5,361 nucleotides of DNA from Bacteroidota bacterium (GTDB lineage: Bacteria; Bacteroidota; Bacteroidia; Bacteroidales; VadinHA17), in assembly GCA_022711195.1 (NCBI GenBank), contig JAKLFN010000152.1:1-5361 (forward strand). The letters run 5' to 3'. How positions within the stretch are numbered: position 1 is the first letter of the stretch; every line of letters starts with the position of its first letter. A program made the translations under genes and the position numbers. Shown piece after piece: positions 2,980-5,141 of the stretch. Under the pieces are notes generated by a model. That model did not search any database. It saw only the letters and a program-made list of their open reading frames with translations, and was not told the origin of the DNA.

Positions 2980-3028
2980 AAAGATAAAAGATGAAAGATA
3001 AAAGATAAAAGACCAAAGATAGAAGATA
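2980..3028. repeat. Seven tandem AAAGATA-type heptamers in the ubiD leader
   Basis: Seven consecutive 7-bp units on the plus strand: aaagata, aaagatg, aaagata, aaagata, aaagacc, aaagata, gaagata. Read on the minus (transcribed) strand the unit is TATCTTT, and the array ends 5 bp before the ubiD ATG, so it forms most of the untranslated leader or core promoter. The unit resembles the -7 element TAnnTTTG without its final G; only the copy at 3015-3021 (with C at 3014) makes the full element. Four units are identical and the rest differ by one or two bases, which suggests expansion by slippage. Low-complexity A/G-rich repeats of this kind are, to my knowledge, frequent between genes in Bacteroidota. 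Confidence 0.9.
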
Positions 3029-3043
3029 AAATCGCGGGATCAG
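3014..3043 (-). promoter_or_regulatory. Putative ubiD promoter (-33 CTG, -7 TATCTTTG)
   Basis: On the minus strand TATCTTTG (3021-3014) matches the Bacteroidota -7 consensus TAnnTTTG exactly. CTG lies 19 bp upstream (3043-3041), one base off the TTG of the -33 box. Transcription would start near 3008, giving a leader of about 30 nt made of heptamer repeats. The signal is embedded in a repeat array, so a chance match is possible. Confidence 0.4.
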
Positions 3044-3050
3044 TATATAA

Positions 3051-3090
3051 AAACAATAATGGGAACTATTCACGAAGAGTAGTTCCCATT
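3051..3090 (-). terminator. Rho-independent terminator of the putative ncRNA
   Basis: A perfect 11-bp inverted repeat, AATGGGAACTA (3058-3068) and TAGTTCCCATT (3080-3090), with an 11-nt loop. On the minus strand the stem is followed by ATTG and then TTTTT (3053-3049), as in an intrinsic terminator; on the plus strand no T-run follows. It would end transcripts coming from the right, before the ubiD promoter. A protein-binding dyad in front of ubiD is the alternative reading. Confidence 0.65.
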
Positions 3091-3553
3091 CACCGTTTAC
3101 TGCCTAAGCTGTTCACGGCGTCGGATTACTGTTATTCCGGCCGGTTGCATTACAGGTCTTACGATCTGGTTTTGCAGCCCTGGGCTTTCCGGTTCTGCTT
3201 GTTACGGCAGATCCTTCCGGCTGTCCTTTTTCCACGCCGAAGCGTGTTTTCCGGGACGAAGTGTCATTCAGGCTCCGGAGTCTTTTCCCGAAGGATAAGA
3301 CAACGGTTTCAGGATTTCGAAGTGCCGAAGCTCTTTGATTTCCTGAGGCCCTGTGACCCAGTCGTTGAAAGAACGTTTCCGGTTTCATCGACCTGCTGAG
3401 CACCCGGGATTGGTCTGGGACCAGGTTCCTTTCGCTCAGGCTTCGGCTCTCCTGATGCGCAGACCCGGAGGTCTGGAAGAACCGGTTTGTGTTTCATTTA
3501 AGTAACCTTCGCCGGTCCCACATCTTTTGAGCAGCCTTTTATCGCTCATCCGA
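3051..3553 (-). ncRNA. Candidate long structured non-coding RNA (~500 nt), family not recognised
   Basis: This stretch is more G+C-rich than the intergenic DNA around it and has no convincing protein gene, but on the minus strand it folds into a series of compatible hairpins (plus-strand coordinates): 3460-3475 (CAGACC/GGTCTG, UCCG loop); 3396-3439 (CTGAGC/GCTCAG) enclosing 3411-3423 (TGGTC/GACCA); 3363-3375; 3309-3346 (TCAGGA/TCCTGA) enclosing 3321-3334 (UUCG loop); 3280-3301 (GTCTT-A-TCC, UUCG loop); 3251-3278; 3233-3246 (CACGC/GCGTG, UUCG loop); 3194-3211; 3153-3168 (GUAA loop). All four UNCG loops are closed by C-G and exist only on the minus strand; on plus they read CGAA/CGGA. Ends may pair: CGGCG at 3514-3510 with CGCCG at 3120-3116, and GCTG at 3536-3533 with CAGC near 3111-3108. 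A consensus promoter and an intrinsic terminator flank it. RNase P, tmRNA and SRP hallmarks are absent. Helices were found by eye; no free energy or covariation was computed. The alternative is a small basic protein or a dispersed repeat. Confidence 0.55.
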
Positions 3554-3558
3554 TATAC

Positions 3559-3589
3559 CAAATTTAATAAAGCATCCCTCAGAAAGCAA
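3559..3589 (-). promoter_or_regulatory. Bacteroidota-type promoter for the putative ncRNA
   Basis: On the minus strand TTG (3589-3587) is followed after exactly 20 bp by TAAATTTG (3566-3559), a full match to the TAnnTTTG -7 consensus with normal spacing. Start of transcription is expected about 5-7 nt further on, near 3553. This is the best promoter match in the window, and nothing but the structured region lies directly downstream. Confidence 0.65.
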
Positions 3590-3622
3590 TTATATCAGGT
3601 CTATGTTGTAAACCTGATATAA
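3590..3622. promoter_or_regulatory. Perfect 11-bp dyad abutting the ncRNA -33 box (operator candidate)
   Basis: TTATATCAGGT (3590-3600) and ACCTGATATAA (3612-3622) form a perfect inverted repeat with an 11-nt spacer. Its inner edge touches the -33 TTG (3589-3587), a usual position for an activator or repressor dimer. Half-site centres are about 22 bp apart, two helical turns. No T-run follows on either strand, which argues against a terminator. The regulator is unknown. Confidence 0.5.
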
Positions 3623-3628
3623 ACAGCA

Positions 3629-3650
3629 GTTATTAACAATTGTTGATAAC
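3629..3650. promoter_or_regulatory. 22-bp near-perfect palindrome (GTTATTAACAA/TTGTTGATAAC)
   Basis: An A+T-rich palindrome centred on CAATTG (3637-3642) with a single mismatched pair (T3634 and G3645). It begins 6 bp beyond the 11-bp dyad, so two symmetrical sites lie side by side upstream of the ncRNA promoter. Each half contains a 9-mer (TTATTAACA, TTATCAACA) resembling a DnaA box but lacking the central CAC. A binding site for a dimeric regulator is the simplest reading. Confidence 0.4.
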
Positions 3651-3730
3651 GTTGTAAGGCCATGATACTGATGATTCTCACCATTCTGTCACACGAACTC
3701 ATCCCCCCTGCCCCTTCGCTGACAGATCAG

Positions 3731-3857
3731 CCTCTCCCCCTAAATCCCCCTCTCCCAGGAGAGAGGGGGACTTAAATGTTTCTCTTAATTTAAAAGCCCC
3801 CCCTGGGGGAGAGCTTGTCCCACGTAGCTTCAGCGTAGCGGGAGGTTTGGGGAGAGG
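3731..3857. repeat. 127-bp C/G-rich palindromic repeat (REP/MITE-like) ending at the eno stop
   Basis: The ends CCTCTCCCC (3731-3739) and GGGGAGAGG (3849-3857) are perfect 9-bp inverted repeats, extending imperfectly inward to about 18 bp (CTAAATCC against GGAGGTTT). Inside are a 10-bp hairpin with CCAGGA loop (3745-3754 with 3761-3770), a C7-T-G5 hairpin (3797-3809), and a doubled CGTAGC (3823-3828 and 3834-3839) framed by TCCC/GGGA. The right end is immediately next to the TAA of eno (3860-3858). No coding capacity and no evident target-site duplication. C-rich 'CTCCCCCTAAATCCCCC' repeats of this look occur in multiple copies in many bacterial genomes; copy number here cannot be seen from one window. 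Confidence 0.7.
3791..3816 (-). terminator. Possible enolase terminator inside the palindromic repeat
   Basis: On the minus strand AAGC, bulged TCT, CCCCC, a very short loop, a G-run and GCTT are followed by TT at 3793-3792 (the T-run is TTTT, 3795-3792). This is the first G+C-rich hairpin with trailing T residues after the eno stop, about 45 nt downstream. The second hairpin at 3745-3770 could reinforce it. The T-run is short, so efficiency is uncertain. Confidence 0.4.

Positions 3858-5141
<1,284 letters not shown>

Follow-up and report, generated by a model that had tools for sequence, protein, structure and literature searches.

A probable new class of large structured noncoding RNA in Bacteroidales with DnaA-box-like sequences upstream of its promoter

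Several large structured bacterial RNAs are known that have no agreed function. GOLLD and ROOL, two large noncoding RNAs, are often linked to phages; 6S RNA is about 190 nt long and forms one long hairpin, and RNase P RNA resembles the RNA described here in size and in its long-range closing helix. A precedent for replication-linked noncoding RNAs is CcnA of Caulobacter, which is 182 nt long, lies within the origin, has CtrA as its presumed activator, and targets the ctrA and gcrA mRNAs (PMC8959179). Another kind of RNA, asdA, is antisense to dnaA (PMC3634043). In the open-access literature on DnaA-regulated RNAs, we found no large DnaA-controlled RNA. Here, we describe a large RNA gene of Bacteroidales with a conserved DnaA-box-like array ahead of its promoter. 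Our overall reading, to which we assign a probability of roughly 60%, is a free-standing class of structured RNA whose transcription would be set by DnaA and whose core would act in trans.

A structured RNA gene between enolase and UbiD

The window, that is, the whole 5,361-nucleotide stretch of Bacteroidota DNA analyzed here, carries in order the genes for enolase, the RNA, a UbiD-family decarboxylase, and a SpoIIE-type phosphatase. An earlier note, made from the letters of this DNA, had proposed an unrecognized structured RNA gene on the minus strand, ∼500 nt long and flanked by a promoter and a terminator of its own, and comparison with relatives bears out a gene of this kind. The features of the locus are as follows.

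3858-5135, minus strand: enolase
3559..3589, minus strand: Bacteroidota-type promoter, TTG (3589-3587), 20 nt, TAAATTTG (3566-3559); from sequence
3048..3554, minus strand: noncoding RNA gene, predicted transcript; from full-length homologs and covariation
3049..3090, minus strand: intrinsic terminator, hairpin 3090-3058, then ATTATTGTTTTT; from sequence, kept in 11 close homologs
Start taken as 2971, to 1154, minus strand: UbiD-family decarboxylase
1125-55, minus strand: SpoIIE-type phosphatase

The ends of the RNA (start near 3554, end at the T-run near 3048) were placed from the positions of the promoter and the terminator. The promoter claimed earlier, TTG-N20-TAAATTTG, can be read directly off the minus strand, and TTG and TAnnTTTG stand at matching distances in a logo of 68 family members (see below). 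The claimed terminator is also present, as a hairpin at 3058-3090 and a T-run at 3053-3049. A simple promoter and terminator scan of the window listed no sigma-70 promoter at the RNA gene, as expected for a promoter of the Bacteroidota type, and did not list the 3058-3090 terminator, the loop of which exceeds the limit of the scan. The UNCG loops noted before (3466-3469, 3326-3329, 3289-3292, and 3238-3241) all occur on the minus strand; so does the GUAA loop at 3159-3162, the hairpin of which is not kept in all close relatives.

Three further elements lie around the gene. Short direct repeats (AAAGATAAAAGATNAAAGAT) occupy 2980-3031 between the terminator and UbiD, and the UbiD open frame crosses them. 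C-rich and G-rich inverted repeats occur at 3731-3857 between the RNA gene and enolase, with a similar stretch in one related locus (L002). On the minus strand, a 14-pair hairpin at 3590-3622, between the promoter and the box array, is seemingly not kept in close relatives.

The closest relatives of the UbiD gene that we found belong to metagenome-assembled Bacteroidales genomes, Prado086 and Prado085 first. Searching 72 UbiD loci gave full-length matches to the RNA in nine, at ∼74%–86% identity, and the rest of the spacer was little conserved. Two other genomes (G004 and G306) also carry the RNA, giving 11 genomes besides the window, labeled Bacteroidales or Bacteroidota. The conserved stretch runs approximately from a palindrome at 3650 to just past the terminator T-run at 3048.

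We then considered how far folding supports an RNA. The minus strand gave a folding energy of −183.1 kcal/mol versus a mean of −149.9 kcal/mol (sd 6.35) in 100 shuffles (z = −5.2; 0/100 as low). The plus strand folded equally strongly (z = −5.2), so that single-sequence energy does not fix the strand, which is fixed instead by the promoter, the terminator, and the comparison; folding energy alone proves only that something in the region is unusual. The comparative evidence for a predicted RNA gene, drawn from aligned sequences, is far stronger. Collecting homologs and examining the helices for covariation, as the earlier note had suggested, yielded a consensus (RNAalifold, 11 close homologs) of 128 pairs, 39 of which show at least one change on both sides that keeps the pair. 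In these homologs, 96.7% of cells were paired versus 92.1% in shuffles, and 74 cells were double-changed versus 24 in shuffles, with 0/500 shuffles as high on any measure. Sliding the partner by 1–3 columns left 28%–45% of cells paired, in a comparison that favors the consensus over the slid versions since the consensus was derived from the same 11 sequences. The terminator is almost invariant, as are several other stems, and these carry little information for or against the fold.

The earlier note had held that variation following codon positions, with no covariation in the helices, would speak against an RNA. In two minus-strand frames of the window, substitutions fell on the three codon positions as 219/196/225 and 145/122/104, and 49 of the 52 indel runs against the window were not multiples of 3. 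Changes at all codon positions together with out-of-frame indels indicate that the region does not behave as coding. A gene for a small protein, or a spacer structured by chance, is thus scarcely credible. The window does hold open frames of 96, 84, and 62 aa, and relatives have open stretches reaching 133 codons in one frame or another; none of the three window frames has a Pfam match, however, codon periodicity is absent from the two minus-strand frames tested, and the covariation of the helices speaks against both ideas. The locus thus combines covarying helices, no coding constraint, and its own promoter and terminator, as expected of structured noncoding RNAs in general.

The claim that the RNA matches no known family also stood: an Rfam 15 search of the window gave no match over the gathering cut-off, a lax search of 3040-3860 gave 10 matches that were all far below it, and Rfam models had no match at 13 related loci. 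On this comparative basis, the minus-strand segment from ∼3554 to 3048 almost certainly encodes a large structured noncoding RNA of a genuinely new class. We regard it as categorically new because no described RNA family matches and the combination of features was not found elsewhere. The broad genre of large structured bacterial RNAs is already known, and the class may stand unnamed in earlier candidate lists, such as that of structured RNAs from the human microbiome.

Individual known elements were considered as well. RNase P RNA (RF00010) had matches over the cut-off elsewhere in 11 of 12 carrier genomes and none in the twelfth (G169). No tmRNA was found in the window by ARAGORN, nor by Rfam in the window or the 13 related loci. 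OLE, GOLLD, and ROOL, which we take to be included in Rfam 15, likewise had no Rfam match in the window or at these loci. For a mobile origin, a plasmid collection gave no match; for a phage origin, one exact 18-base pattern had three matches in viral contigs, all of them phage coding sequence by eye.

Long-range covariation frames a conserved core

To define the RNA beyond its close homologs, we used a covariance model of the 3′ end (R1; 99 positions, 24 sequences, threshold E ≤ 0.01, with rough E-values), of which the terminator forms part. We drew 73 R1 matches from 69 chosen sources, a subset of loci. In 68 of them, the upstream DNA carries a promoter of the Bacteroidota type and, after it, the GAGNGATAAAA module. 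This 68-member set, used for the logo and the array, omits the L154 copy (cut by a contig start) and L178, L183, L186, and L192, whose 5′ module scored too low. Total RNA length ranges from 282 to 647 nt among the 68 members; the middle varies, and distant relatives have mainly the two RNA ends in common.

We scanned all column pairs of both RNA ends for covariation, assuming no structure and using no phylogenetic null. Five of the 73 matches were left out (the L154 copy, L183, L192, and L186 and L193, with the core unaligned), one duplicate was merged, and L178 was kept despite a misplaced 3′ anchor, giving 67 members. The best six column pairs fell in two helices, four in P1 and two in P2; the third tested pair of P2 ranked fourteenth in the same scan. 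The parts of the RNA are listed below.

3548..3553, minus strand: P1 5′ strand (UCGGAU), pairs with 3121-3126; from covariation
3537..3547, minus strand: conserved internal-loop strand GAGCGAUAAAA between P1 and P2; GAGNGATAAAA almost unchanged across the 68-member logo
3533..3536, minus strand: P2 5′ strand, pairs with 3139-3142; from covariation
3143..3532, minus strand: variable multi-helix middle domain with UNCG-capped hairpins; from the consensus fold of 11 close homologs
3139..3142, minus strand: P2 3′ strand; from covariation
3127..3138, minus strand: conserved internal-loop strand GGAAUAACAGUA between P2 and P1, with a conserved AAUAACAGUA core
3121..3126, minus strand: P1 3′ strand (AUCCGA); from covariation
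3091..3120, minus strand: penultimate hairpin, loop UUAG, often of UNCG type in relatives; from comparison

In P1, five pairs form in 66–67 of the 67 members, and 54 members form the sixth (3548/3126). Double changes, counted by parsimony on one tree built without the P1 and P2 columns, numbered 7, 11, 4, 0, and 14 at five P1 positions and 3, 8, and 4 at the three tested P2 positions, each of which is paired in 61 of 67 members; the fourth P2 pair draws its support from the close homolog set only. Closure of the RNA by long-range pairing, as suggested previously, is thus borne out through P1 and P2, with partners other than those first named. The pairing of 3510-3514 with 3116-3120 was unsupported, as 3091-3120 forms its own hairpin (helix 25; 5/11 pairs with double changes) and the covarying closure is P1. 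Similarly, the covarying partner of 3533-3536 is not 3108-3111 but 3139-3142, within P2. Together, P1 and P2 frame an internal loop with near-invariant strands GAGNGAUAAAA / AAUAACAGUA, which are likely the working center of the RNA.

Family spread and changing gene neighbors

Of the 295 genomes sampled from the order, R1 matched 67 (a single match in 59, two in 8); under strict filters, the other 228 gave none, and we do not claim the RNA to be universal in the order. Across the phylum, 5 of 345 genomes matched, including G001, under filters that, as in the order-wide search, were stricter than elsewhere. Matches also occurred in 10 of the 13 genomes behind the named loci (one labeled Marinilabiliales), in both sampled genomes of a second family, and, once each, in 39 of the 40 genomes from the G001 family. 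Such near-universality suggests that the RNA is probably important in the last family. From these sequence searches, the predicted RNA gene is usually single-copy and found mainly in one order of Bacteroidota.

In G280, G169, G086, and G052, two copies are close together; in G188, G138, G021, and G235, the two are on separate contigs. Closely spaced RNA gene pairs are seen at L137, L159, L148, and L154, the L137 copies being ∼552 and 647 nt long.

A single match in nearly every genome of the G001 family would suit a housekeeping RNA that replaces a known one, for example 6S RNA, with growth-rate control through DnaA, and the 6S model RF00013 was silent genome-wide in 12/12 carriers. This silence is uninformative because the model also misses a control Bacteroides genome. 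Moreover, the length and fold are unlike the single long hairpin of 6S RNA, and the 13 related loci matched no Rfam model. We regard such a replacement as quite improbable.

The flanking genes of the 73 R1 matches fall into many groups that differ between lineages: enolase and UbiD in the clade of the window, and DNA primase, a RelA/SpoT-like gene, and others (identified by eye only) elsewhere. This neighborhood suggests no protein or pathway partner. Since the flanks differ between lineages, the RNA most likely acts in trans, as judged from gene order. A cis-acting leader, attenuator, or riboswitch of the downstream UbiD-family gene would fit the window and 10 other close loci, in which the RNA lies directly upstream of UbiD on the same strand. 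However, the downstream gene differs in other lineages, the first downstream gene is on the opposite strand in 30 of 72 cases, and the conserved terminator ends the RNA ahead of UbiD. The UbiD leader is already largely refuted by these observations, and we consider it very improbable.

A DnaA-box-like array and the link to replication

Upstream of the promoter, the earlier note had overlooked a DnaA-box-like array at 3606-3650, with the following parts.

3606..3650, minus strand: DnaA-box-like 9-mer array, boxes A–D, at a constant distance in most of the 68 members; putative DnaA binding
3649-3641, minus strand: box A, TTATCAACA
3638-3630, minus strand: box B, TGTTAATAA, inverted relative to A, 2 bp apart
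3625-3617, minus strand: box C, TGTTTATAT
3614-3606, minus strand: box D, degenerate in the window

Members carry up to four DnaA-box-like 9-mers (TTATNMACA) at a fixed distance upstream. The array consensus of the 68 members reads TTATYAACA-NN-TGTTRATAA, then TGTTNATA and TGTKNATA, and the center of the palindrome lies 92–94 nt upstream of GAGNGATAAA in 64 of them. We counted 1.79 exact boxes per member (67 members), compared with 0.04 in mononucleotide shuffles and 0.05 in dinucleotide shuffles (maximum 0.09 of 50). With at most one mismatch, a box stood at position B in 66, A in 52, C in 42, and D in 31 of the 67. Box position 6 commonly has A rather than C; the E. coli consensus is quoted as TTATCCACA in PMC11317965. 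Boxes C and D form a direct pair 2 bp apart, and E. coli DnaA prefers box pairs 2 or 3 bp apart (PMC11317965). A box-like array thus lies near the promoter, as at DnaA-regulated promoters, and these 9-mers are presumably the DnaA boxes of the lineage.

Similar sites also occur away from the RNA. In a scan of 16 genomes for the palindrome (≤2 mismatches), six (G001, G002, G306, G117, G108, and G200) showed no site other than the one at the RNA gene, and the remaining ten had 1–4 sites. The paired-box pattern matched in 13 of 16 genomes, in several of them at other places too, and we do not claim paired boxes to be unique to the origin and the RNA gene. Two genomes have the array ahead of a different gene: G210, which lacks an RNA match, and G295, in which the RNA is found on another contig. 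At both loci (L208 and L209, near 1501-1560; G210:C34 and G295:C10), the array follows an apparent LOG-family gene and precedes the gene for a predicted secreted protein, without the RNA.

We also found a second cluster of TTATYAACA-type boxes, between nadA and rpiB (genes recognized by eye), in G283 (G283:C12:411660-411841, L233) and G169 (G169:C1:368759-369060, L252). In both genomes, cumulative GC skew over the 400 kb examined reaches its minimum within ∼25 kb of this candidate origin. For 16 further carriers, we counted 38 boxes in the 900-nt stretches upstream of nadA, with at least one in 15 of the 16, as against 8 in ∼38.7 kb downstream. The downstream control being mostly coding DNA, dinucleotide shuffles of the same upstream 900 nt were added and gave 3.6 boxes on average (maximum 7). 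Because the same 9-mers are enriched at the candidate origin, DnaA is the best candidate for a protein that reads the array, although another regulator could read the same palindrome.

The RNA locus itself was considered as oriC because of its boxes and was set aside: near the RNA, the cumulative skew of G283 and G169 levels off and does not turn, and its lowest point within the 400 kb examined is ∼150–170 kb away, in an analysis of weak skew on two contigs. The RNA lies ∼172 kb (G283), ∼160 kb (G169), and 292 kb (G100, measured to nadA) from the candidate origin, the three of 18 genomes in which both were found on one contig.

These distances, and up to four boxes at fixed spacing, would also suit a locus at which the DNA itself matters, the array being a site of DnaA titration or reactivation like datA or DARS, and the RNA being independent or modulating the site rather than being the main object of DnaA regulation. 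E. coli has dense DnaA boxes near oriC, and titration has been studied with datA and DARS mutants (PMC12371093). The occurrence of the array without the RNA (in G210 and on a separate contig in G295) points the same way. However, the array keeps its distance to the RNA (92–94 nt to GAGNGATAAA in 64/68 members), a constancy not needed for titration alone, and the two stay together in different gene neighborhoods. We therefore consider a titration or reactivation site unlikely.

DnaA-linked transcription of the RNA is, from the position and conservation of these boxes, the probable reading. We infer that DnaA would bind the boxes ∼50–100 bp upstream of the transcription start and set the rate, in which case RNA output would track active DnaA and, through it, replication. 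By the comparison of relatives, the closing helix P1 is made by the first bases of the RNA, and P2 and the near-invariant loop complete the core. This P1-loop-P2 core may be the site for a protein partner or another ligand, in trans, with the fast-evolving variable arms as a scaffold. The most likely role would be to adjust a process linked to replication or growth; possible targets are DnaA itself and RNA polymerase. An RNA dedicated to chromosome-replication control, in which the DnaA-box promoter is joined to feedback on initiation or on DnaA through the P1-loop-P2 core, is a more tentative proposal that we think rather doubtful; if true, it would be a layer of replication control that we did not find described for Bacteroidales in the open-access literature searched. 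The conserved array before the promoter offers a handle that points to a defined cellular process.

How, then, does this RNA compare with known systems? OLE, GOLLD, and ROOL are likewise large, noncoding, and multi-helix with a conserved core, but their conserved cores are different, and the DnaA-box-like array upstream is a feature of this RNA. 6S RNA is also a free-standing, trans-acting bacterial RNA gene, yet RF00013 matches none of the 12 carriers; RNase P RNA differs in having its own locus elsewhere in 11 of the 12. With the DnaA-bound promoters and clusters of nrdA, datA, and DARS, the array shares several 9-mer boxes and a direct pair 2 bp apart; it differs in that the gene served is a large RNA and in the common A rather than C at box position 6. 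Like this RNA, CcnA is noncoding, is linked to the replication cycle, and has DnaA boxes in its gene region (PMC8959179), whereas this RNA is 282–647 nt long, lies outside the candidate origin, and has its boxes upstream of the promoter. If DnaA control holds, this RNA would join CcnA, from which it differs greatly, as an RNA of the bacterial replication cycle, and its case could be tested directly.
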